64,000 bases of DNA from an uncultured Phocaeicola sp. (GTDB lineage: Bacteria; Bacteroidota; Bacteroidia; Bacteroidales; Bacteroidaceae), in contig CANPVZ010000006.1 of NCBI GenBank assembly GCA_947581855.1, forward strand, positions 62,001-126,000, written 5' to 3'. Below are positions 14,062-55,253 of the stretch, piece after piece. Position 1 is the stretch's first letter, and each line of letters opens with the position of its first letter. The notes beneath the pieces are model-generated. The model was not told the DNA's origin, ran no database searches, and saw only the letters and a program-made list of their open reading frames with translations. The translations under genes and the position numbers were made by a program.

Positions 14062-15210
14062 TTATTCTCCGAATATTTCTTTCAACTTGTTGTCCAGTTC
14101 TTCATCGTTGAACTTTCCGATAATCTTGAAATCTTTGTCAATCAAATATTTTGTAGGCAGGTAATGGATGCCATATTTGTCGCTGATGTCGTTTGTTTTG
14201 TCCAACTTGTAAGTCTTGCGGTCTATCACCTTCATGCCTCGGAGCACATGGTGGAACATCTCCACGCCATCGTCTTTGATGGCTTTTCGCCAGACGTCAG
14301 ATTGTCCGTCGTTGCTGGCTACGCAGAAAACCTCCAGTCCTTTGTCGTGGTATTTTTTATAAAGTTGTTTTACATGCGGGAAGCTTTTCCTGCACGGCAC
14401 GCACCAGCTTGCCCAGAAGTCGAGCAACACGTATTTTCCTTTTGCTACCTCGGAAAAACTGATGGAATCCCCGTGTACATTCAGTGTGGCGAAGTCGGGT
14501 GCGGGCTGTCCGGGTTGCACTTTTGCCAGGGAAGCCAGTTCCTCTTCAATCTCTTTCACATTGCCGTACTTTTTCACGTTGTCGCTGAAGTTGTCGTATA
14601 TCTCCTTAATCTCCCCGTACGTCATGTCGCCCATTAGGAAACGCATATACCCCGGAGCTGCGTATGAGTCGGGATGTGTCTTTAGGAACGCGGTCTGTAC
14701 TTTTTGTACTCGTTCGTAGTAAGGTTCCATCTGTTCGTGCAAGGCGGCCGCTTTTTCATGGTCTGTTTCTGCGGCGATGGCTTCTTGTATGGATTTTGCC
14801 TCATCTAGAATCTGTGTGGTGAGTGTTTCCAGACTGTCGACCTGTGCTTGGGTGAATGATCCAGTCAGCACCGGTTTTCCGAAGTTTGCCGTATCAATGT
14901 TCAGAGTCATTTCCTTGGGTTCCATATAAAGTCCGCATCGGTTTGGGTTCATATAGTCGTTGGGATCTCCCATGTAGAGCGAAACCTCCCTGTAAGGGGT
15001 TTCCATTTTTCCTTTGAACTCGAACGTTCCGTTGCTGATTAGGGCGCTGTCTTTAACGACTGTTGTATCGTTGGCCGCGTACACCATGTAGATGTATTGT
15101 CCATCCCTACCCTGAATGCTTCCGTTTAACAGATACTGGTCTTTAGGTAGTTGTTGGGCGCAGCTTGCCAGCAGGGCGACTGCAATACCGGAGTAAAGTA
15201 ATTTTTTCAT
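14062..15210 (-). CDS. TlpA-type thiol-disulfide oxidoreductase lipoprotein
   Basis: Lipoprotein (MKKLLYSGIAVALLASC, lipobox LASC) of 382 residues. An N-terminal DUF4369-like beta domain (LNGSIQGRDGQYIYM) and a helical middle part (residues 120-230) precede a thioredoxin domain with the redox site WASWCVPCRKSFPH near residue 267 and the cis-Pro loop YLPTKYLID. Such proteins reduce disulfides in exported partners. It lies downstream of the SusCD locus and upstream of the DsbD-alpha-like gene. Substrate is unknown. Confidence 0.9.
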   Translation of the reverse strand: MKKLLYSGIAVALLASCAQQLPKDQYLLNGSIQGRDGQYIYMVYAANDTTVVKDSALISNGTFEFKGKMETPYREVSLYMGDPNDYMNPNRCGLYMEPKEMTLNIDTANFGKPVLTGSFTQAQVDSLETLTTQILDEAKSIQEAIAAETDHEKAAALHEQMEPYYERVQKVQTAFLKTHPDSYAAPGYMRFLMGDMTYGEIKEIYDNFSDNVKKYGNVKEIEEELASLAKVQPGQPAPDFATLNVHGDSISFSEVAKGKYVLLDFWASWCVPCRKSFPHVKQLYKKYHDKGLEVFCVASNDGQSDVWRKAIKDDGVEMFHHVLRGMKVIDRKTYKLDKTNDISDKYGIHYLPTKYLIDKDFKIIGKFNDEELDNKLKEIFGE

Positions 15211-15249
15211 GTTTGGAATATGTTTTTTAATTGAATGAATATCGGTTGT

Positions 15250-15759
15250 TTATAATTCATATTTGTTTTGGATGTTTTTTATTTCTTGCTCTTGCATTTC
15301 GAACCACTCATAATAGACTTGTGGAATTTGTACGATTCCATTTGTTTCTTTCGATTTAGTATGCCCATGCGTATCTTCCTAAAAAGTCGTTTCACTCGAA
15401 TAAAGGGTTAATCAGACTTCGGTTCCTTGTTCTTTCATTTTACTGATAAGAAGAGACACTTTTGTCATATAGCTTCTTCGTGTCGCGTCGGTCAGAAGGA
15501 TTTCCCAGAAAGAGGTACCTTTATCTTTTTTTCTTTCCGCAGTAATGCTTCCACTCTCCCGATCGTTATTGGTGATAATGAACCCTTTAGAAGCCAGCAG
15601 GGAAAGAGCCGATTTGAATACTACATCATAGTCTGCATCGAAAGTCCGTGTACTAACCATTTGCATCTGTTGTGGACTCAGTTGCAACGTTTTCATGCTT
15701 CCGCATGATGAGAGCAAAAGCGTTAAAACAGAAACATACGAAGGTATAACTTTTTTCAT
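15250..15759 (-). pseudogene. Small lipoprotein gene with two in-frame stops
   Basis: The ORF track gives a 115-residue product (15412-15759) with lipoprotein signal MKKVIPSYVSVLTLLLSSC and a domain that reads FDADYDVVFKSALSLLASKGFIITNNDRESGSI, like BamC-fold lipoproteins. The stop TGA at 15412-15414 is followed in the same frame by LTLYSSETTF, a TAG at 15379-15381, and then EDTHGHTKSKETNG ... QVYYEWFEMQEQEI up to a TAA at 15250. That continuation looks like the normal C-terminus of the family. I infer a 169-residue ancestor broken by two nonsense changes; a truncated product is still possible. Confidence 0.7.
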
Positions 15760-16025
15760 TATGTATGATTTATTAAGTGTGCTATTCTTAAGAATTTAAA
15801 TTGAAAATGTTAACTTATTTAGGTTTCATACATATCGAAGAAAATCACATCATAGAATGCTATCCGTTTCTAAAAGAGTGTCTTCACAAGAAAAAAGCAA
15901 AATTACATTTAAAAATAAAAGTAAATATAGAATTTGTTCTTATTTCTTTTAGGTTTAATCATATTCTTCTTTCCCCATTTATCACTTTACACTAAAATTT
16001 CCGTATCACAGGAGATACCGTCCTT
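15760..16025. other. AT-rich spacer between two lipoprotein genes
   Basis: No gene that I would support; a 64-codon plus-strand ORF here is Lys/Ile/Phe-rich chance sequence. Confidence 0.4.
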
Positions 16026-17258
16026 TTATTTATAGAGACGGTAATCATCTTTAAACTTATTACCGTATTGACCTACAAGAAATTCATCTAATTGGGGTCC
16101 ACGGGCATTGTGATGCAAAATATTTCCGTCCGGTCCCACCAGCACACAGTAAGGGATACCATTGAAATTATATAGTTTTGCTATCGGTCCATCAAAAGCT
16201 TTCAGATCCGAAGCCTGTGTCCAGCTCATTCCTTCCGATTCGATGGCTTTCAGCCAGTCTTCTTTCTTGGCATCCATAGAGATGCTGATAATGTCGAAGC
16301 CATCCGAATGATACAACTCATATACATTTTTCAAATGCGGGATCTCACCCCGGCACGGACCGCACCACGACGCCCAGAATTCCACCAGCGTATAGTGGCC
16401 TTTTCCTACATAATCCGACAATTTGATGGCGTTTCCTTCTTTATCGAACAAATTCAAATCGATGAAAGGAGCTCCGATCGCGCAATTTTTCACGCTGTCC
16501 GCTTTGGCAAACACTTCTTTTCCAATTGCGTTCTCTTTCAAAGAGACCGGAAATGTTTGGATAAGTTCTTCCAAAGTGGCGGCATCGAACATTTCCATGC
16601 ACTCTTTCATAGCGTATAGACCTACAAAATTTTCTTTGTTTTCTTTTATAAGGTTTGCCATACTATTTGCAATGCTCTGTTGTAAGGAATCTGCTTGATG
16701 AACAAATGTCACACAATCGGTAATACCACATCCTTCTTCCGTGCGCGAACGACTATAAAAGTCGCTTGTCAGGTTGTCTTTTATACTTTTTTTATCTGTA
16801 CGCAGTTGCTTGTATTTCATGTATTTTTCTTGTAAAGGGGAACCTTTAACCGATATTTTATTATAATCATATGTTCCTCCGTAAGTATAGAAATCTAATG
16901 GAATGCTGTCGAGGCAAGCGGTTATTTCAATCGTGTTATTATCGACTATCAATGGGATGATAGGACGCATGACAACCCCGCGTTGTCCCATTAGGTTGCG
17001 TGTACTGTCCGGAAAGATTTTAATGGTCAGCAGTTCGGGGGTTTCTCTTTTTCCTTTAAATTCGAACCGTCCATTTTGAATAACGGTACTGTCAATGCCT
17101 TCTAACTGGAAGATGTTATCTCCTTTGCAGAGATATACGGTTTTGCCTTCAGTATCGCCGGTTAATATACCTTGTATGGTGTAGCCTTCCGGTTGGCAAG
17201 CTTGTAGGACGATAGCTCCTATTAACAGGAGTATGCCTTTTATATAAGTTTTCTTCAT
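16026..17258 (-). CDS. TlpA-type thiol-disulfide oxidoreductase lipoprotein with DUF4369 domain
   Basis: Lipoprotein of 410 residues (signal MKKTYIKGILLLIGAIVLQAC). The DUF4369 domain (YTIQGILTGDTEGKTVYL ... NGRFEFKGKRETP) spans about residues 25-125, then helices, then a thioredoxin fold with WASWCGPCRGEIPHLK near residue 290 and the GIPYCVLVGPDG cis-Pro loop. It sits 14 nt downstream of susD and is clearly part of that operon. Its placement suggests that it processes, in the periplasm, something imported by the SusCD pair or a thiol on its partners. Confidence 0.92.
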   Translation of the reverse strand: MKKTYIKGILLLIGAIVLQACQPEGYTIQGILTGDTEGKTVYLCKGDNIFQLEGIDSTVIQNGRFEFKGKRETPELLTIKIFPDSTRNLMGQRGVVMRPIIPLIVDNNTIEITACLDSIPLDFYTYGGTYDYNKISVKGSPLQEKYMKYKQLRTDKKSIKDNLTSDFYSRSRTEEGCGITDCVTFVHQADSLQQSIANSMANLIKENKENFVGLYAMKECMEMFDAATLEELIQTFPVSLKENAIGKEVFAKADSVKNCAIGAPFIDLNLFDKEGNAIKLSDYVGKGHYTLVEFWASWCGPCRGEIPHLKNVYELYHSDGFDIISISMDAKKEDWLKAIESEGMSWTQASDLKAFDGPIAKLYNFNGIPYCVLVGPDGNILHHNARGPQLDEFLVGQYGNKFKDDYRLYK

Positions 17259-17272
17259 AGTTACTTTATTAA

Positions 17273-18721
17273 TTAATTTTTATAATTCTGCGATAAGTTG
17301 GGATTAGAGTTTATGGCGTTTTGCGGGAACGGGAAAATCCACATGGGGGAATCCGGTGTAAGTGTGAATATCTGTCCGGCAATGTCGCGTGTCAATGTTT
17401 CTTTATATCCTTCTACTTGGTTCCAACGTTTACGGTTGATAAAGTTATAATAGGAGTAGATGTTTTCGCCATGTGAAGTTTGCTTCAGGTGGAAAATGGC
17501 ATCTGCTTCTGTAGTAACGGTTCCTTCCAAGGGAGCGTAAACTGCCGGGTCGATACGATTTATACGAATGGCATCTAGCGCTTTCATCGCTTCTTTATAA
17601 TGACCGTTGTGGATTTCCGCTTCGGCAATTATCAGATACATGTGGGTAGTCTTCATCCCGCAACTGTTCCAGCCGGAACTGATGTCATAAGTAAATATGT
17701 AGTCCGGCAATCCCAAATAAGATTTACCCAATCCTATTCCGGGTGTTTTATCGTACATCAGATAGTCGGTAGACATTTTGTCGCGACTGGCATGCCCCTC
17801 TTCGAAAGCGTTCCATGCTTCGGGAGAGAGACCACTGAAGAATTCAATATGGTAAACATAGAATAAATCCTCTTCACATTTCAAAATAGGACGATAAATT
17901 ACCGGATATTCTCCTCCTGTGATGTTACCGGTCAGAGTAGTGATCATCTCATTGTAATTGTTTACGGTTTTGTTAAGCGCTAAGGCTTTTCGGGCTTCTT
18001 CCGCAGCAAGGTCGAATTCTTGCATACTGAGAAGCGCCAAGGCTTTGGCTGCATGAGCGCAAGGTTTGCTTATGCGCATACGGTTTACGGAAATGACTGG
18101 TAGTGCATCGAGTTCAATTGCTTCGTTCAAATCCGCTAGAATATTCTCATATACTTTTTGTACTGTGATTTGTTCGGTGGGCTGGGAAATATCCCATTCC
18201 TCCGTCACGTAAGGGATTCCAGGGTCTTGTGCAGCAGTGGCTGGGTTATAAGCTTTAGCGAATTTATTAACCAAAATGTAATGGAAATAAGCACGTAAAA
18301 CTAGTGCTTCACATTTCAGTTTCTTTTTAGTGGCTTCATCGCCTTCGGCAGCGTCAATATGTGATAAAATTGCATTTGAAATTTGACCGATGATTCCATA
18401 ACATTCGGAATAATCAGAGTCACTGGAAGTTAATTCCGCCATTTTGTCCTGATTCGTTTCGTCCCAAGAGATAAGGATCGCCGAACGGGTTTTGTTGGGA
18501 CGGTTGATAAGAGTTGGAATATTTTCGAAAGCTCTTATCATATCTCCGCAACATACATTCCAATCGGAAGTGGAGATGGAAATTTCTGCATTAAGCAGCA
18601 TTTCTAACTGGTCGGTAGTGGAAAGCAGATTCTTTCCTTTAGGTTGTACTTCTGTAAAGTCGGAGCAGGAACCAGTGAGTAATGCGGTTCCAAGTAGGAT
18701 GCTATATATATATTTCTTCAT
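17273..18721 (-). CDS. SusD/RagB family nutrient-binding outer-membrane lipoprotein
   Basis: Outer-leaflet lipoprotein (MKKYIYSILLGTALLTGSC, 482 residues) that caps a SusC channel and captures ligand. TPR helices are visible (LRAYFHYILVNKFAKAYNP is the family hallmark; AKALALLSMQEFDLAAEEARKAL), and the C-terminus ends in WIFPFPQNAINSNPNLSQNY, typical of SusD. It follows susC by 5 nt. Ligand cannot be deduced; no glycoside hydrolase or lyase is in this operon, so it may import something other than a glycan. Confidence 0.95.
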   Translation of the reverse strand: MKKYIYSILLGTALLTGSCSDFTEVQPKGKNLLSTTDQLEMLLNAEISISTSDWNVCCGDMIRAFENIPTLINRPNKTRSAILISWDETNQDKMAELTSSDSDYSECYGIIGQISNAILSHIDAAEGDEATKKKLKCEALVLRAYFHYILVNKFAKAYNPATAAQDPGIPYVTEEWDISQPTEQITVQKVYENILADLNEAIELDALPVISVNRMRISKPCAHAAKALALLSMQEFDLAAEEARKALALNKTVNNYNEMITTLTGNITGGEYPVIYRPILKCEEDLFYVYHIEFFSGLSPEAWNAFEEGHASRDKMSTDYLMYDKTPGIGLGKSYLGLPDYIFTYDISSGWNSCGMKTTHMYLIIAEAEIHNGHYKEAMKALDAIRINRIDPAVYAPLEGTVTTEADAIFHLKQTSHGENIYSYYNFINRKRWNQVEGYKETLTRDIAGQIFTLTPDSPMWIFPFPQNAINSNPNLSQNYKN

Positions 18722-18726
18722 ATTGT

Positions 18727-21700
18727 TTATAAGTTAACGTTTATACCAAAGATGTAAGAGCTGGGATTACGCAGTCCCAATGTTTCGGGGTCTACACCCA
18801 CTTTATTCTTTACCCAGAGATATTTAGGATTGTCTATCTGGAAACGAAGATTGATGCGATTTACTCCAATGCCTTTCAACCATTTCTCAGGCAGTTCATA
18901 ACCGAATACGATGTTACGGATTTTCAGAAAATCAGCATCGTGTATGGCTGTATTGGAATATTGAGGTTCAGAACCGAGTGAGCTGGAACCGTAACGTCCG
19001 ATACCCGGTGTATTGGTCGGGTTCTCCGGTGTCCAAGCATTCAGGAAATAGCTGGCAATAGTTCCGTAGGATATCGAGAAAGTTTCGGTTTCTGCTAATG
19101 CGCGCATTTTGTGTCCGCCATAGTAAGCCATCAGGATGTTCAGACTGAATCCGTTCCAAGTAAAACGGTTATCCATACCCATCACCACTTTCGGCTCGCT
19201 TTGTCCGGAATACTCTAAGATGTCAATGCTCCTGCTTGATGCGGAATGAGTAGTATTTCCTTCTTCGATGTACCATAAAGTCTGTCCTTTTTGCCCCTCT
19301 TGGTCGCTGATGCCTGCGAAGCGATAGGACCATAGGGCACTGGTAGGATACCCCGTCCGGTAGGGATTGCTTATTAATTGGTAGGCAGAAGAGGACGGAT
19401 TTTCAACATCTGTTACTTTATTGTTGTTATGTGCGAAAGTTAAACTGGTGCTCCAACCAAAGTTTTCGCGTCGTCGTTCTACCAGCCAGTCATACGTTAA
19501 TGCCAACTCAACACCTTTGTTACGGATGCTTGCCATATTGACAAACATGGAAGTAAAACCAGTAGAGGGGTCTAGTGTTTTGTTCGAGAAAATATCTTTT
19601 CCTTCTTTATTGTAGTAGTCGAGCGAACCTCTTAACCGGTTGTTCAGCAAAGAAAAATCCATGCCGACGTTTGTTGTACGGCTCTGTTCCCATTTCAAAT
19701 TGGGATTCGCAGGGCTTTCCACTTCTCCGTACGGGAGGTTGGTATATTGGTTCATACCGGTAGAAGTAGCTGTCATATAACTGGTGGCTCCTTGATAGAT
19801 GTTACCTGTTACGCCATAGCTCACACGCAGTTTCAGGAAATTAATCCACTGTAACGGTTTCATGAAGCTTTCGTTATGTAAATTCCATCCTGCGCCTACC
19901 GACCATAACGGTTTCCCACGGAATTTAGAGTTCAAACCGTATACATCGGCATAATCTTTACGATATGAAGCAAATACATTATACTTTTCGTCATATGTAT
20001 AAGTCAGGTTGGCATAGCCTGATGCATAGCGGTGCAATTCTTCCGGAACGACACCCATGCCATCCCGGAAGTAGGGATTGAACACGAACTGGTTGGCGGG
20101 GTATCCTCCGGCAGAAGACATATAGTAAGGACTATAATTTACCAAGCTCAATGCGCCGAAGTCTATGGTATGGGTAGAACTGTTTTGCAGCTGTTCATCA
20201 TAGCCAAGCATCAGAGCTTTAGAACCCCTATATTTTGTTTCCCGGAATTCGAGGCCGGCTAATGCTGCAACGGCGTGTTTCCCGAATGTATTGGTGTAGT
20301 TCATCTGACCGCGGGCTGTCCAATAAGTTCCGTCTGTATCGGTGGTGCGAAGCATTCCGCCGTCTTGGGGAGTAAGGTAAGTAATCTTATTGTTAGAATC
20401 TATCGTTGTGTAGGCATTGCGAATGCTGCGTGCCACATGACTTTGGGCGTTTGCATACCATCTGGTAGTGGTGTGGTCGTTCTCATAAATGAACTGAGTG
20501 TTTACGGTAAGTCCTTTAATAATTTTGAAAAGTAAGTCACCATGATAACGCATGTGTTGGCGTTGAGTCGTTTCTACATTGTTATAAAATTCATCTTTGA
20601 TGTTTACACCCAAGTCATGGAGGCCTTCAGCTCCTTTACTGCTCCAGTAAGGATTACCGTCGTACCAATAATAGAAGGTATTAGCGGTACCATCTTCATT
20701 GTACATACGTTCGTAAGCGGGGATAGCCCACGGATTGGTATGTTTAGCATTATAATCTTCTCCCGGTTCTTTACTTTTGTCGTAAATACCATTGATACTG
20801 AAAGTAGCTGTCAGCCAAGGAGCCATTTCATAAATACCTTTATAGTTGATGTTCAACTGGTTGGCATTCGTATTTATTTTTCCGCTGTTATCATATTTAT
20901 AATTCAAGGTCAGGTTGCTTTGGAACTTGTCCGAACGACTGCGTACCGACAGGTTGTACTGTTGCAGAATTTGTTGCCGCAGGATGTTGTCGGCATATTC
21001 TTTGGCAAAGTTATTCTTTTTCAGTGATTCTAAGGTCTCTTTGAGTTGGTCGCGTGTGATTTCTCCCTTGGCAAGTCGGTAATAAGCGTATTGTATAGGT
21101 GATATGGCGCTGGAGCCTCCCTCAATCTCTGTGGTAGTGGAAGATATCGGATCACTTACCTCGCCGTCGTTGTCGAAGAAATAATATTCGTAGTAATCCG
21201 ATTCCACATTTACCTGCTGCTCGGGATTCATGTAGAAGTTGGCTGCATAATCCATATTCTTCTTTTCGTAAATGGTTAAGTTCGCAGAGAAATCAATGTC
21301 TATCTTGCCCTTCTTCTTGGCGTTTTTGGTAGTGATGACAATGATACCGTTTGAAGCGCGTGCACCATAGATAGCGGTGGCGGCGGCATCTTTCAGCACA
21401 TTGACGCTTTCGATGTCATAAGGATTTAAGTCTTCTATCTTGCCTTCGATGGGTATTCCATCTACTACCAATAACGGATTTGTTTCAGCGTATAATGAGC
21501 TTGTTCCACGGATGGTAGTCTTGCCGCCGTAGGTGCTGAGTCCTGCCACGCGTCCTTCCAGGTTATTCAAGATGTTGGTGGTATAGCGTTCCTCGATTTT
21601 ATCTGTACGGATAGTAGTAACGGCACCGGTCATTTTTTCTTTGGCAATATCCTGATAACCGGTAATGATTACTTCGGAAACCATATAGGCATCCTCTTCC

Positions 21701-22296
21701 ATGGTGAAAATGTTTTTGGAAGTTGATGTCACTACCTTCTCTGTTGTTTTTTTCCCTATATAGGAAATGACGAGTGTAGGATTTCCTTTTACCCGTTCAA
21801 GTGTGAAATTTCCATCCATATCCGTGGCCGTTCCTTGTTGGGTACCTTTGATAAGTACGGCTGCACCGATGATTGGGTCCCCATTCTCGTCCAATACCGT
21901 ACCGGTAATTTTTCTTTCTTTCGGTTGAGGTGTTTGTGGAGATGTTTGTCGTGTGATAGTGTAAATGTTTCCTTTCCTGCTGTAAGTCAAGGGTGTGTTA
22001 GTCAGTAACACATTCAATATTTCGCTCACTTCTTTTTGTTGGAAGATGTGTGAGGAACACTTGATTTGCGCCGCTTCGTTAGTCTTGTACACTAATTGCA
22101 CGTGGCTGTTCTTGATAATTTGTTGGAAGGCTTGGTCTAACGTAGTGCCTCGTTCGATACGGATCGTCAGTTTCTGAGCGGCGACTTCCGAAGGGAACAT
22201 ACTCATAAGTCCGATGGCCAAAACCATTAAAAATAGGGAGGTAGCTCTCTTTAAAGCAAAGCATGCCCTTTGTCCATTTTCTTTTTTCTCTCTCAT
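18727..22296 (-). CDS. SusC/RagA TonB-dependent outer-membrane transporter with STN domain
   Basis: A 1189-residue TonB-dependent porin. After the signal peptide (FLMVLAIGLMSMFPSEVAAQ) comes a secretin/TonB short N-terminal (STN) domain (LTIRIERGTTLDQAFQQIIKNS), then a carboxypeptidase-D-like domain (ITGTVLDENGDPIIGAAVLIKG ... TDMDGNFTL), the plug with the SusC box ATAIYGARASNGIIVITTK, and a 22-strand barrel. The STN domain signals to FecR, which agrees with the fecR and ECF sigma genes just upstream. The paired SusD follows by 5 nt. Confidence 0.96.
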   Translation of the reverse strand: MREKKENGQRACFALKRATSLFLMVLAIGLMSMFPSEVAAQKLTIRIERGTTLDQAFQQIIKNSHVQLVYKTNEAAQIKCSSHIFQQKEVSEILNVLLTNTPLTYSRKGNIYTITRQTSPQTPQPKERKITGTVLDENGDPIIGAAVLIKGTQQGTATDMDGNFTLERVKGNPTLVISYIGKKTTEKVVTSTSKNIFTMEEDAYMVSEVIITGYQDIAKEKMTGAVTTIRTDKIEERYTTNILNNLEGRVAGLSTYGGKTTIRGTSSLYAETNPLLVVDGIPIEGKIEDLNPYDIESVNVLKDAAATAIYGARASNGIIVITTKNAKKKGKIDIDFSANLTIYEKKNMDYAANFYMNPEQQVNVESDYYEYYFFDNDGEVSDPISSTTTEIEGGSSAISPIQYAYYRLAKGEITRDQLKETLESLKKNNFAKEYADNILRQQILQQYNLSVRSRSDKFQSNLTLNYKYDNSGKINTNANQLNINYKGIYEMAPWLTATFSINGIYDKSKEPGEDYNAKHTNPWAIPAYERMYNEDGTANTFYYWYDGNPYWSSKGAEGLHDLGVNIKDEFYNNVETTQRQHMRYHGDLLFKIIKGLTVNTQFIYENDHTTTRWYANAQSHVARSIRNAYTTIDSNNKITYLTPQDGGMLRTTDTDGTYWTARGQMNYTNTFGKHAVAALAGLEFRETKYRGSKALMLGYDEQLQNSSTHTIDFGALSLVNYSPYYMSSAGGYPANQFVFNPYFRDGMGVVPEELHRYASGYANLTYTYDEKYNVFASYRKDYADVYGLNSKFRGKPLWSVGAGWNLHNESFMKPLQWINFLKLRVSYGVTGNIYQGATSYMTATSTGMNQYTNLPYGEVESPANPNLKWEQSRTTNVGMDFSLLNNRLRGSLDYYNKEGKDIFSNKTLDPSTGFTSMFVNMASIRNKGVELALTYDWLVERRRENFGWSTSLTFAHNNNKVTDVENPSSSAYQLISNPYRTGYPTSALWSYRFAGISDQEGQKGQTLWYIEEGNTTHSASSRSIDILEYSGQSEPKVVMGMDNRFTWNGFSLNILMAYYGGHKMRALAETETFSISYGTIASYFLNAWTPENPTNTPGIGRYGSSSLGSEPQYSNTAIHDADFLKIRNIVFGYELPEKWLKGIGVNRINLRFQIDNPKYLWVKNKVGVDPETLGLRNPSSYIFGINVNL

Positions 22297-22306
22297 AGCA
22301 TAATTT

Positions 22307-23458
22307 TTATTTAGTGATTAAAATGTGTCTGTCTTCAATTTCGAACCGGAGTCCGGTAGTTCGTTCGTAACTGTTCAGTAATATCCGGATATCTTCGTGT
22401 CGATATAGTTGTCCCGATAAGCGGATGTGCCGGATATCATCGGAAGCAAAAGAAACCTTGAAATTGTACCAGCGCGAAAGGGTGGTCATAATTTCTTCTA
22501 ACGGTTGTCCGTTAAAGATGAACAGGTGATCTACCCAGGCTGTATAGATAGAGGTGTCCACCGTGCAGACAGTGATGATACCCTTTTCCTGCTCATAAGT
22601 CAGTTTCTCCGAAGGCTTTATTTTCGTTTCTTTGCCTTCCGGGGTGGTAAATCCGATACTTCCCTCTACCAATACGGCGGCGAGAGGTGATTCGGCATAA
22701 TTAGTGATGTTGAAACGTGTACCGTACACCTTGATGTCGCCTTGAGTCATTGACACGATGAACGGCCGATTGTTGTCTTTGGTAACTTCAAAAAAAGCTT
22801 CTCCTTTGAGGTATACTTTGCGCTCGTCTTTTCCGAATTTTTTGGGGAAACGTAATTCTGTCTGAGAATTCAGCCATACGGAAGTGTTATCATCCAGTTG
22901 ACAAAAGAATTCTTCTCCGGCGGGAATAGACAGGGTATGGAATTCTGGTTTGGCCGGTTTTGTTTGGCGGTCATCTTCAACGTATATGGAATCGATGAGT
23001 TTTTTTACTTGTTTGTTATTTTGATTCAGTTGAATCGATTCTCCGTTAGCAAGTGTCAGGACGGCTCCTGTTTTGCCCGGTTGAATTACATGGGCGGTTT
23101 TCTTTAGCGGTTCGGCCTCCGGATAGGAAGTCTTGTACAACGTAACCGAAAGAATGAGCAGTGTCACAACAGCAGCAACGCTTCCTAACCATGCGTAAAG
23201 ATGTTTCCGTTGGTTGGGTTTCTCATGGGGGGGGGTAATTTTTCTTCTGAATCTTTCAGCCATTTTTTGCCCATATGCTTCTTGTTCCAGTTCCAGAATC
23301 TGCGATGTTGCTTGCAGACTCTTTATCTGGTTGAATAATGCTACATTGGCTTTTGAGGCTTTCAGCCATGCGTCCAACTGTTGTTGTTCAGTTTCGGATA
23401 AGGGTTGTCCCAAAATTTTTATAGCAATCAGCCGTGATATATTAGCAGGTGTTTTCAT
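22307..23458 (-). CDS. FecR family anti-sigma factor
   Basis: A 383-residue membrane regulator. The cytoplasmic N-terminal part (residues 1-78) contacts the sigma factor, a membrane segment follows (WLGSVAAVVTLLILSVTLY, about 88-107), and the periplasmic FecR domain (IPAGEEFFCQLDDNTSVWLNSQTELRFP) plus DUF4974-like tail (SRWYNFKVSFASDDIRHIRLSG) senses the STN domain of SusC. Residues around 74-76 are encoded by a C9 tract (plus strand G9 at 23227-23235), just before the membrane segment. Slippage there would leave only the cytosolic domain. Confidence 0.93.
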   Translation of the reverse strand: MKTPANISRLIAIKILGQPLSETEQQQLDAWLKASKANVALFNQIKSLQATSQILELEQEAYGQKMAERFRRKITPPHEKPNQRKHLYAWLGSVAAVVTLLILSVTLYKTSYPEAEPLKKTAHVIQPGKTGAVLTLANGESIQLNQNNKQVKKLIDSIYVEDDRQTKPAKPEFHTLSIPAGEEFFCQLDDNTSVWLNSQTELRFPKKFGKDERKVYLKGEAFFEVTKDNNRPFIVSMTQGDIKVYGTRFNITNYAESPLAAVLVEGSIGFTTPEGKETKIKPSEKLTYEQEKGIITVCTVDTSIYTAWVDHLFIFNGQPLEEIMTTLSRWYNFKVSFASDDIRHIRLSGQLYRHEDIRILLNSYERTTGLRFEIEDRHILITK

Positions 23459-23543
23459 CTCTTTTTAATCCTTTTAAGGGCCTTTATTATATAGACGGGT
23501 TTTTTAGCAGAAAAGTATGACAAGCCCTGATGTTTTTAACATT

Positions 23544-24104
23544 TCAAAGAGATAGAAAAAGTAAAAGCAAGAGAAAATCTTCTTTAGACAGATATTCGGA
23601 TAATTGTTTTAAAGCTCTGTATTTTATAGTTTTAACCGTGTTGATACTAATATTTAGTGCATCGGCAATTTCATTCATATTATTTTCTTGCAGGGTCATA
23701 AGGATTACTTTTCGACTTTGCGGAGTCAGCTTTTGTATGGCTTCTGCAATAAGGCATGAACTCTCGGCTTCAATCATGTGCTCGATAAACGTCTCGTTTG
23801 AGGCAATATTCAGATAGTCTAACGTGTCTTTTTCCTGATCGTTTTGTTGATAGTAAGTCCAGTTATCAATAATTACATTCCGAATAACCGTAAAGAAATA
23901 GTTCCGGGGTGATTTTACCGCACCGATAGTTTTCCGGTGAGTCCAAAGCTTGATGTAAGCCTCCTGCAAGAAATCATCAATGGTTTCCTTATTGTCTACA
24001 TAGTGACTGGCAAAAACATAAAAGGAGGAGGAATTTTGTTTAATAAATTCCTGCATGCAATGTTCGTCCCAATCGGCAAGATTTAAAGGAATGTTTTTAC
24101 TCAT
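23544..24104 (-). CDS. ECF sigma factor (RpoE/FecI-like)
   Basis: A 186-residue extracytoplasmic-function sigma factor. Region 2 is visible as DDFLQEAYIKLWTHRKTIGAVKSPRNYFFTVIRNVI, and region 4 as IQKLTPQSRKVILMTLQENNMNEIADALNISINTVKTIKYRALKQL in shorter pieces. It is the first gene of the minus-strand locus, followed after 85 nt by fecR and then susC-susD, the standard Bacteroidetes cell-surface signalling order. It probably drives susCD transcription. The Leu-rich end (LLLLLFLSL) is usual for this family. Confidence 0.95.
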   Translation of the reverse strand: MSKNIPLNLADWDEHCMQEFIKQNSSSFYVFASHYVDNKETIDDFLQEAYIKLWTHRKTIGAVKSPRNYFFTVIRNVIIDNWTYYQQNDQEKDTLDYLNIASNETFIEHMIEAESSCLIAEAIQKLTPQSRKVILMTLQENNMNEIADALNISINTVKTIKYRALKQLSEYLSKEDFLLLLLFLSL

Positions 24105-24402
24105 TTTCTTATTAGCGGTGAGATTTCATTGCAAATAAATCATTTTTTGGGGAGAAAACCAATAGATTGCTCTTTTTTTGATAGAGACATCTTAAAATCA
24201 ATCTTTATCAGAAGGGAGGTTGGATGAGTAAATCAGTTTGTCTGCTGTAACGCAGGTTTTAGTGGATTTGCATAGAACTATTCATTTGTTGGGAGATGAC
24301 TCATGTAAATATAGGTTTATTTATTTTTTCTATATGTTATCTTTTTTCAGACAGGAGAAAGATAACATGGTTTCACCGGAATGGAAATAAAGGATTTATG
24401 TG
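24105..24402. other. Divergent regulatory region sigma / RNase H
   Basis: No gene. The minus strand carries TTTATTTG (complement of 24132-24139), a weak -7 box 28 nt before the sigma ATG. An inverted repeat GTTATCTTT...AAAGATAAC at about 24338-24367 could be an operator or a hairpin. Confidence 0.4.
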
Positions 24403-24410
24403 TACTTTTG
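24403..24410 (+). promoter_or_regulatory. -7 box for the RNase H gene
   Basis: TACTTTTG followed by C, 21 nt before the ATG at 24432; it lies inside the ORF track's longer reading and so decides the start. Confidence 0.6.
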
Positions 24411-24431
24411 CTACCGGATAATAGAAACGTT

Positions 24432-25058
24432 ATGGCAAAAAAGAAATATTATGTGGTGTGGAAGGGTGTAGAACCGGGAGTGTATGCATCGTGGAAAGAG
24501 TGCGAAGCTCAGATAAAAGGTTATACGGGGGCCTTGTACAAATCGTTCGATAACGAGGACGAAGCCTGGCAGGCAGCCGCCTCTTCACCTTATATATATA
24601 TGGGCAAACAAGCGGAAACCCATGCAACGGCAGCTAAATCTATTCCCGATACGGTGTGCCGTGAGGCGTTGGCCGTAGATGCTGCATGTAGCGGCAATCC
24701 CGGTCCGATGGAATATCGTGGTGTCTATTTGCGCACGGGGCAGGAAATATTTCATTTCGGGCCGATGCACGGAACAAACAATATCGGTGAATTTTTGGCC
24801 ATTGTGCATGGATTGGCATTATTGAAGCAAAAAGGTCTGCACTCAATGCCTATTTATTCCGATAGTCGTAATGCCCTGAACTGGATAAAGCAGAAGAAGT
24901 GTAAGACAAAACTTACCCGTGATCAGCAAACGGAGCAGTTATTCCTTTATATAGAGCGTGCGGAAAAATGGTTGCGGGAGAATACATATTCCAATCCGCT
25001 CATCAAATGGGAAACAGAACAGTGGGGCGAGGTCCCTGCCGACTTCGGTCGCAAATAG
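24432..25058 (+). CDS. rnhA: Ribonuclease H1 with viroplasmin-type N-terminal domain
   Basis: A 208-residue RNase HI that removes RNA from RNA-DNA hybrids. The first 45 residues form the hybrid-binding domain (MAKKKYYVVWKGVEPGVYASW ... YKSFDNEDEA). The catalytic domain shows the metal-binding acidic residues in LAVDAACSGNPGP, NNIGEFLAIVHGL and PIYSDSRNALNWI. I reject the ORF track's MEIKD start because a -7 promoter box lies between it and ATG 24432. Array element B begins 37 nt after the stop. Confidence 0.92.
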   Translation: MAKKKYYVVWKGVEPGVYASWKECEAQIKGYTGALYKSFDNEDEAWQAAASSPYIYMGKQAETHATAAKSIPDTVCREALAVDAACSGNPGPMEYRGVYLRTGQEIFHFGPMHGTNNIGEFLAIVHGLALLKQKGLHSMPIYSDSRNALNWIKQKKCKTKLTRDQQTEQLFLYIERAEKWLRENTYSNPLIKWETEQWGEVPADFGRK

Positions 25059-34322: not shown

Positions 34323-34521
34323 TTATTTTTTGTTGTCCTTTGATGTAGAACCAAGAATTGTGGCATTGCGCAGGTTAAAAATGATGCAGTTGTTTTTGTC
34401 TGTAGTATTGCCTTGGATATGCGTCCATCCTTTTAGCAATTGAACTGACGCATATCCGGCAAAGAACTTATTCAGGTTGGTTATATTGTACAGGAATCCG
34501 GATGGAGTAGTGTTCCATACC
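34323..34521 (-). pseudogene. Coding-like remnant after phnW, out of frame with it
   Basis: In the frame shifted by one from phnW, an open stretch without a start runs from the end of phnW through the intergenic region to a TAA at 34323: WNTTPSGFLYNITNLNKFF, then AGYASVQLLKGWTHIQGNTT and DKNNCIIFNLRNATILGST. The residue mix looks like real protein. I do not recognise the family. It may be the 3' stub of a gene lost during exchange at this surface-glycan region. Confidence 0.35.
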
Positions 34522-35604
34522 TTCCTTCAATACTGCGAAGAAGTCTTCAATATCTTTTTCATCAATAGCTCCTAAAGCACAGAGACGGAATGTATTGGTG
34601 GTGGAAATCTTTCCCGGGTAAATGGTGAATCCTCGTTCGTAACAATAATTGTGTATTTTCTCAAAGTCCCAGTTAGGATCATCGGGATAAAGTACGGACA
34701 CGACTAATCCCGACTGCCATTCCCTTTTAATGACATTTCGGAAACCCAGTTGTTCCAAGCCTTTATGGATGGCTTCAAAGACGCGTTTGTGTCGTGCGAA
34801 CTTCATTTCTTCTCCCATCTCGAAATACTCGTCTAAGGCTTTTCGGGTAGCGTATACGGTTTGTACAGGAGGAGTAAAATGCATCTCTCCGGTTCGTTCA
34901 AAGAAATCATATTGTAAATAAAGATTGCAGTAATAGGATCTTTTCGGATAGTTTTTCGATTGTTTGATGATATCTTCGTTTCCAATGATAAACGATAAAC
35001 CGGTCATTGCCATTAATCCCTTTTGAGCCGAAGCCATACAGAAATCAACGTTGTCTTTTTCCATATCTAAGGGGATCATGCCTAATGAGGATGTCGTGTC
35101 GACTACAAAAATAGCGTGATAGCGGTGTGCTAATGTTCCGATTTGTTGCAGTGGATTCAATAATCCGGTACCGGTTTCATGGTGGGTGGTGTATACTAGC
35201 GCAATGTCGGGATTTTCTTTCAGAGCCTTTTCCACTTCATCCGGTCGGATCGGTTCGTAAATAGATGATTTCAGGTTGATATGAGGAAGTCCGTAATATT
35301 CACAGATTTCTGCGGCACGTGTGCTATAAGCCCCGTTGTTCAAAATCAAAGCTTTTTTTCCGGCAGGTAACAATGAATTGAGGCAAATATCAATATTAAT
35401 TGTGCCTGATCCGCAAAATAGAACAGATGTATATTTCTCCGGTGAGGCATGCACAACCTTCAGCAAATCTTTTCTCAGTCCTTTCATCATGTCCGCGAAC
35501 TCTTTTTCGCGCGGGCAAATATCGGGCACAACTTGTGCCATTTTTACAGTGTCGGTGGTTGTGGCCGGCCCCGGATTCAGTAATATGTTTCTTTTTATGT
35601 TCAT
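34468..35604 (-). CDS. phnW: 2-aminoethylphosphonate:pyruvate aminotransferase
   Basis: Fold-type I PLP enzyme of 378 residues. In this context it runs in the biosynthetic direction, converting phosphonoacetaldehyde to 2-aminoethylphosphonate. Family motifs are LLNPGPATTT at the start, the PLP aspartate in VDTTSSLGMIP, and the Schiff-base lysine in SAQKGLMAMTGLSF near residue 195. It follows the decarboxylase gene by 5 nt and is the last gene of a four-gene phosphonate operon. No phosphonatase (phnX) is near, which argues against catabolism. Confidence 0.94.
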   Translation of the reverse strand: MNIKRNILLNPGPATTTDTVKMAQVVPDICPREKEFADMMKGLRKDLLKVVHASPEKYTSVLFCGSGTINIDICLNSLLPAGKKALILNNGAYSTRAAEICEYYGLPHINLKSSIYEPIRPDEVEKALKENPDIALVYTTHHETGTGLLNPLQQIGTLAHRYHAIFVVDTTSSLGMIPLDMEKDNVDFCMASAQKGLMAMTGLSFIIGNEDIIKQSKNYPKRSYYCNLYLQYDFFERTGEMHFTPPVQTVYATRKALDEYFEMGEEMKFARHKRVFEAIHKGLEQLGFRNVIKREWQSGLVVSVLYPDDPNWDFEKIHNYCYERGFTIYPGKISTTNTFRLCALGAIDEKDIEDFFAVLKEGMEHYSIRIPVQYNQPE

Positions 35605-35609
35605 GATAA

Positions 35610-36737
35610 CTACTTGTTTAGGAATTCCATTAGGTTTTCTTTATTTTCAATTGGCGTGGTGGTAGGGCGTCCTAAGTCTTTGCGAGCTCCTTTCTTTACT
35701 TTCACTTCGAGCAAAAGCGGTGTTGGCTGTTCGGAAAGATGGTTCAAAGCCTCTTGCAATGCCTGTTCGTTTTCTACGCTTATCACTTTTTTATATCCGC
35801 AAGCTTGTGCTATTTGAGGAAGATCCAATTGGAATCCGATAGTCGGTTGCCCGCCTACGGAATCGTGTGCTCCATTATTCAGCACAATGTGAAAATAGTT
35901 GGAAGGGTTCATGCTTCCTATGATTCCGAGGGCTCCCATATGCATGATCGTTGCGCCGTCTCCGTCTATGCAAAAAACTCTTCTTTCGGGTTTGTTTAAG
36001 GCAATACCCAGTGCTATTTGCGAGGCATGCCCCATAGAACCCACTGTAAGGAAATCACGTTTGTGGCCTTGCCCCGTAGCTTCCCGGTATTCGAAAAGTT
36101 CTCTCGAAATCATTCCTGTAGTAGATACCACGATATCGCTGTCTTCCATATGGGATACAATCTGTCCGATTGTTTGCTCGCGGCTCAGTTCGTAAATCGG
36201 CAAGGTATTTTCGGGGCGTTTGTATTCCTCAAAAGAACCTTTTCGTATGACAAGGGCGAAGGGCTCTTTGGTTTCTTCCATAAAACGGATAGAGCGTTCC
36301 AATTGTACAGTCAGAAGCGTTTCCTCCGTTTCCATGATTTCGTGGCGGATTCCCATTGCTTCTAACAAGGGGATTGTTACTTTCCCCTGTTTCACATGCT
36401 GAGGCTCATCTTTTACTTCCGGTTCGCCTCTCCAGCCAATCAGTAATAATACGGGAATGTTATAGACCTCTTTATCCATAAGCGACAAAAGCGGATTCAC
36501 CGTGTTTCCTAATCCGGAATTCTGCATATAGACGACAGGAATGTTACCGGTAGCCAGATAATAACCGGCTGCTAATCCGACTGAACCTCCTTCGTTAGCA
36601 GCAATAATATGATTTTTCTTCTCCGTGTTATGCGTAAGATAAGCACATAGATTTTTCAATAATGAATCGGGTACTCCTGAATAGAACTCAAGTCCCCTCT
36701 TTTGTAAAAACTGGTAAAAGAAAGCGGGTGATATCAT
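35610..36737 (-). CDS. ppd: Phosphonopyruvate decarboxylase
   Basis: A 375-residue thiamine-diphosphate enzyme that decarboxylates phosphonopyruvate to phosphonoacetaldehyde, pulling the unfavourable PEP mutase step forward. The PYR domain has FYSGVPDSLL and AANEGGSVGLAAGY (catalytic Glu), and the cofactor motif GDGATIMHMGALG ... VLNNGAHDSVGGQPT begins near residue 235. The length fits the aepY/ppd family. It lies 8 nt after the mutase gene. Confidence 0.95.
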   Translation of the reverse strand: MISPAFFYQFLQKRGLEFYSGVPDSLLKNLCAYLTHNTEKKNHIIAANEGGSVGLAAGYYLATGNIPVVYMQNSGLGNTVNPLLSLMDKEVYNIPVLLLIGWRGEPEVKDEPQHVKQGKVTIPLLEAMGIRHEIMETEETLLTVQLERSIRFMEETKEPFALVIRKGSFEEYKRPENTLPIYELSREQTIGQIVSHMEDSDIVVSTTGMISRELFEYREATGQGHKRDFLTVGSMGHASQIALGIALNKPERRVFCIDGDGATIMHMGALGIIGSMNPSNYFHIVLNNGAHDSVGGQPTIGFQLDLPQIAQACGYKKVISVENEQALQEALNHLSEQPTPLLLEVKVKKGARKDLGRPTTTPIENKENLMEFLNK

Positions 36738-55217: not shown

Positions 55218-55253
55218 GGGGGGGGGGTAAATCATTCGCTTATATTATCTTTG
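55218..55253 (+). promoter_or_regulatory. Promoter with G10 tract at the -33 position
   Basis: TATCTTTG at 55246-55253 is a good -7 box. The place 19-20 nt upstream, where TTTG belongs, falls inside a run of ten G (55218-55227). Length change in the run would change promoter geometry. Confidence 0.55.

Follow-up and report, generated by a model that had tools for sequence, protein, structure and literature searches.

A C9 tract ahead of the membrane helix of a FecR-type regulator and a candidate set of poly-G/C contingency loci

A run of nine C residues lies inside a gene for a FecR-type sigma regulator (fecR) in the window, the 64-kb stretch of DNA from an uncultured Phocaeicola species that was analysed here. 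The run probably belongs to a set of poly-G/C contingency tracts that extends across the genome and whose members vary in length by slipped-strand mispairing, and a slip in fecR would free the sigma-binding domain of the regulator and uncouple the adjoining SusCD-TlpA locus. The set as a whole is best read as a poly-G/C contingency-locus system of the Campylobacter type that appears to have expanded in one genus.

The C9 tract and the fecR locus

The tract occupies exactly positions 23227-23235, as G9 followed by TAAT on the plus strand and as C9 on the coding strand of fecR (22307-23458, minus strand; 383 amino acids). Read directly, the codons ATT ACC CCC CCC CAT specify residues 74-78 (I-T-P-P-H), in agreement with the sequence-only reading, which had placed the slip-prone run at about residue 74. 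Assignment to the FecR-type regulators rests on FecR and FecR_C domains above the Pfam cut-offs, one transmembrane helix, a cytosolic N-terminal domain and a neighbouring ECF sigma gene, and the periplasmic part of the product matches PDB entries 4m0n and 4m0h, which are putative anti-sigma factors. The cytosolic domain extends over approximately residues 1-73 and is followed by the tract residues, a hydrophobic helix that peaks at residues 89-107 in the hydropathy profile, and the periplasmic FecR and FecR_C domains.

Computed translations indicate that the reading frame is preserved by C6, C9 and C12 only. The C10 allele would encode 78 amino acids (ending in KITPPP and a stop), the C8 allele 90 and the C7 allele 77. 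The transmembrane helix is missing from the C8 and C10 products, as had been proposed for a one-base slip, and the slip products keep exactly the cytosolic domain. In this respect fecR has the form of a contingency locus, with an uninterrupted tract within the gene that is in frame at C9 and truncates at C8 and C10.

All genes of the locus are encoded on the minus strand and, according to their Pfam domains, comprise in series an ECF sigma factor, fecR, SusC, SusD, two TlpA-like proteins and DsbD_N. The ECF sigma factor gene (23544-24104; Sigma70_r2 and r4_2) is situated upstream of fecR. Downstream of fecR lie a tract-free susC-type gene for a TonB-dependent receptor with an STN domain (18727-22296), a susD-type lipoprotein gene (17273-18721; SusD-like_3 and SusD_RagB) and two TlpA-like thioredoxin-fold genes at 16026-17258 and 14062-15210 (AhpC-TSA and DUF4369; span 14062-17258), which are separated by a small gene. 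The window has one other tract, located between long open reading frames at 55218-55227, which reads G10 and then TAAA on the plus strand. We also note, at 34468-36737, neighbouring phosphonopyruvate decarboxylase-like and 2-aminoethylphosphonate transaminase-like genes, recognised by eye, near glycosyltransferases.

The region 22200-24500 was searched for inverted repeats that could border an invertible segment, and the search returned just imperfect arms of 14-20 nt with 75-86% complementarity, none of them convincing. Switching of a promoter spacer at the C9 was rejected on the grounds that the tract lies mid-gene and that a sigma-70-type scan, the scope of which excludes Bacteroidetes promoters, found no site there.

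Predicted outcome of slippage in fecR

Poly-G/C tracts of this kind would change length through slipped-strand mispairing. At C9 (or C6 or C12), fecR would be read through and give an anchored regulator that responds to the signal. The C8 and C10 alleles would terminate just past the tract, and the soluble sigma-binding domain of 78-90 amino acids left over would be similar to what RseP cleavage of E. coli FecR finally yields. The outer-membrane signal would then no longer govern the sigma factor or, with it, the SusCD-TlpA locus. We infer slippage in living cells and this regulatory outcome from features that can be read in the DNA, namely the tract, its effects on the frame, the family of ON and OFF tracts and its conservation.

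The locus resembles the FecI-FecR-FecA system of E. coli, in which an ECF sigma factor and a FecR regulator are likewise found beside a TonB-dependent receptor with an STN signalling domain. By analogy with E. coli and Pseudomonas homologues (PMC9249621), the N-terminal domain of the present FecR probably binds and controls its partner sigma factor. A truncated N-terminus of E. coli FecR acts without signal: FecI is active in the absence of signal in a codon-82 nonsense mutant (PMC9249621), and the FecR fragments 1-59 to 1-85 are constitutively active and activate FecI in the same manner (PMC9249621, PMC8144685). The earlier proposal that the N-terminal piece can act on its own thus has support in the literature for E. 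coli FecR. The equivalent fragment of FpvR, of 67 residues, inhibits its sigma factors (PMC9249621). Since the one fragment activates and the other inhibits, the direction at this fecR may be either way; the locus would be constitutively on if the piece is E. coli FecR-like and locked off if it is FpvR-like. The free domain of E. coli FecR is produced by proteolysis or engineered truncation, whereas here it would come by a reversible frameshift.

FecR tracts in relatives and polarity onto susC

The motif TTA-C(9/10)-CA ahead of the helix is common to three FecR genes, namely that of the window, L064 of this genome and L154 of G013. The window copy is C9 and in frame, and L064 and L154 are both C10 and out of frame; at C9, the latter two would regain (F)TPPH and continue into a helix. 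An in-frame G9 is present at the same pre-helix boundary in L058 and L189, which are orthologous FecR genes of two species. The tract thus precedes the helix by approximately 0-31 residues in four FecR lineages. In two further loci of G013 (L131 and L137) the tract lies ahead of the fecR start, and L210, a remnant FecR of G001, has a C9 nearby. The nearest orthologues of the window fecR (L010-L013, 45-49% identity) have no tract in the gene or in the compared part of their susC, which restricts the tract at this locus to this species or clade. A contig scan for same-species copies returned distant FecR proteins only (20-29%).

The main rival to release of the sigma-binding domain is polarity onto susC. 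The tract would still phase-vary, but the early fecR stop would lower the translation or transcription of susC, resulting in a plain on/off switch of SusCD to which the free domain is incidental. We regard this as a real but rather doubtful possibility. The gene spacing is compatible with it, since susC begins (ATG) 10 nt beyond the fecR stop here, and the corresponding distance is 32-51 nt in L058, L064 and L189. Among the tract-bearing sigma-FecR-SusC loci of this genome (G000), the tract is found in fecR at three, in the adjacent susC at three and in both at none (contigs C6, C7 and C12 versus C3, C11 and C23), as might be expected of equivalent switches, although these counts are too small for significance. 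The linker between ASD and helix may also merely tolerate PP or GG, the receptor tracts being likewise situated in linkers. Nevertheless, polarity needs no pre-helix position, yet the in-gene FecR tracts have it in four lineages.

Tracts across the genome and the genus

Under a dinucleotide Markov model, about 0.15 G or C runs of at least 9 are expected in the window, where 2 are observed. Runs of 5-8 are depleted approximately fourfold under the same model, and runs of at least 5 number 16 against about 55 expected, which gives the run-length distribution two humps. The whole genome (3.62 Mb; draft assembly, 88% completeness) contains 57 G/C runs of 9-11 (39 of nine, 17 of ten and one of eleven), while about 9 are expected when the Markov expectation for the window is scaled up. 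Runs of 7 and 8 account for just 32 of the 222 seven-base matches in the genome.

The tracts are found in 13 of 51 TonB-plug (SusC-type) receptor genes (2.6 expected; Poisson P 3e-6) and in 3 of 11 FecR genes (0.2 expected; Poisson P 0.001), with gene lengths approximated at 3.2 kb and 1.15 kb, respectively. Those of the receptors are concentrated in N-terminal coding linkers. In one glycan cluster, tracts are carried by genes for glycosyltransferases, O-acyltransferases, an AMP-ligase and a hexapeptide transferase, and further sites include tandem CTP-transferase genes, a fimbrillin and an AraC regulator. An excess of tracts, enriched in receptor, FecR and surface-glycan genes, is the pattern anticipated for contingency loci. 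Recent insertion of a mobile cassette was rejected as their origin, since in most alignments with tractless receptors a tract takes the place of, or adds, no more than about 0-4 linker residues.

Several tract sites have individual features. A surface-glycan cluster at about 119.8-142.4 kb of G000:C9 (L060 and L061) has nine G9-G11 tracts, placed within or next to genes of the four enzyme kinds just named for a glycan cluster. Tandem CTP_transf_3 (cytidylyltransferase) genes of G000:C39 (L077) carry three G9TAAA tracts, some of them at gene ends, where Gly-Gly-Gly is followed by a stop or by Lys and a stop. At L047 (5046 and 8234), each of two tandem sensor-kinase-type genes (1000 amino acids) has a G9 or G10 TAAA tract ahead of its start, at a distance of 86 or 98 bp; a domain scan of the first gene identified PAS and HisKA domains. 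These tracts may act on transcription.

The states of receptor and FecR tracts were called heuristically on the assemblies of six genomes of the genus. A tract was scored as ON when, in the homologous downstream frame, a start codon occurs 18 or more codons upstream with no stop between, and as OFF when another frame satisfies the start-codon rule; OFF frames mostly end a few codons past the tract. Roughly 34 tracts are ON and 20 apparently frameshifted OFF, totals that are approximate because a few receptor entries (e.g. L117, L144 and L217) have the tract upstream of the gene. The receptors comprise 31 ON, 17 OFF and 10 unclear cases, and the FecR genes 3 ON, 3 OFF (including the remnant) and 2 unclear. 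Assembly errors or true pseudogenes may account for part of the OFF calls. On these calls, in-frame and out-of-frame states coexist among homologous loci, as contingency loci would be expected to display.

Tract-centred blastn, which covered the tract-bearing loci, paired tracts of different species as orthologues, with DNA identities of about 75-83% (e.g. L073/L168, L059/L162, L056/L164 and L116/L152). G011, a genome in 3 contigs, is among those that share such tracts. The orthologous receptors L068 and L163 differ in state, the former being C10 (OFF) and the latter C9 (ON), and their flanks differ by a further three bases with the phase kept. The sequence-only reading had also proposed that the tract may switch the SusCD-TlpA locus between regulated and unregulated states. 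Its phase-variation component gains strong comparative support from the tract family in the genome and genus, the frameshifted FecR homologues and the tracts orthologous between species; its component concerning the locus stays with the conditional mechanism described above.

We also note that tracts repeatedly lie about 90-100 bases from contig ends, as in L156 and L158 (G013:C80 and C89) and on several contigs of G005, G008 and G014. Over 500 bp, L156 and L158 have nearly the same sequence, pointing to strain mixture or to repeats at the tracts.

The TAA flank and its interpretation

In the G orientation, TAA directly follows the tract in 36 of 57 cases in this genome and in 10/16, 26/34 and 19/50 cases in sampled relatives. 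In the same DNA, TAA follows 0-3% of G4-G5 runs and 1 of 37 G6 runs. Positions -11 to -7 of the tracts are A-rich. The flank accompanies 71% of tracts with G on the coding strand, 78% of those with C on the coding strand and 50% of all others, in several codon phases. Its presence on both strands and in several phases marks it as a property at the DNA level; codon use was rejected as its cause for this reason and also because the flank extends beyond receptor and FecR genes. All 36 TTA-flanked tracts of at least 7 in this genome are at least 9 long, none being 7 or 8. TTA-C9 occurs 36, 26 and 19 times in three species of the genus and at most 10 times in other members, 0-11 times among 242 sampled genomes of other genera of the family and 0-5 times in genomes sampled from the order's other families. 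A reversed-pattern control gave 0 to about 5.

These features could also be explained if the tracts were primarily DNA elements recognised by a protein or through their structure (A-rich, G9-10, TAAAAT), with the frameshift as a side effect. Conservation of the flank on either strand, across codon phases and at other tracts, the lack of 7- and 8-base members in this genome and the placement of some tracts 86-98 bp upstream of sensor-kinase genes are in line with such a role. We nonetheless consider it unlikely, as the tracts gather in N-terminal receptor linkers, where a slip disrupts the gene, many members are frameshifted, and we know of no protein or process that recognises an element of this kind. 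It is similarly improbable that the genus has a system of its own for these tracts, with an activity, DNA-binding or mutator, that recognises A-rich / G9-10 / TAAA(A/T)T, sets the minimum length of nine and drives the instability; if true, receptors, anti-sigma factors and capsule genes would be under a programmed, sequence-specific hypermutable switch and not passive slippage. That the C9 is an ordinary, functionless homopolymer produced by chance or assembly noise is very improbable, because, even though the fecR copy is just one in-frame tract, the linker around it is permissive and the genome is a draft, long runs exceed expectation while shorter runs are depleted, the tracts have a common flank and are enriched in surface genes, and orthologous tracts are kept across species, including the genome in 3 contigs.

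Relation to known systems and biological meaning

The contingency-locus reading has its closest counterpart in Campylobacter jejuni. PMC4965091 gives 29 loci with at least 7 G/C repeats for strain NCTC11168 and, similar to the present set, describes dozens of G/C tracts in surface-glycan reading frames, where a one-base change turns the gene ON or OFF. The present tracts differ in falling chiefly in genes for SusC-type receptors and FecR regulators; they also bear a TAAA flank signature. In Bacteroides, SusC/SusD outer-membrane proteins and capsules, the same target classes, phase-vary via DNA inversion, as set out in a review (PMC11868660). There, recombinases act at inverted repeats, whereas homopolymer slippage would operate here, at a locus that has no convincing inverted repeats.

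The accessible part of that review mentions no homopolymer system. Nothing specific on homopolymer phase variation in Bacteroidales or SusC was found in the open literature, most subscription papers being outside the search. Poly-G/C contingency loci are already known; for the combination proposed here, in which SusC and FecR of this group would undergo poly-G switching at tracts with a fixed flank, the open literature gave no description.

Accounts of phase variation in Bacteroides deal mainly with DNA inversion, to which dozens of poly-G switches in the SusC receptors, FecR regulators and glycan genes of one genus would add a second mechanism. If this is true, nutrient uptake, possible phage receptors and surface antigens would vary stochastically. 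Switching of the FecR regulator, not of the transporter, would randomise whether the whole uptake locus obeys its signal.
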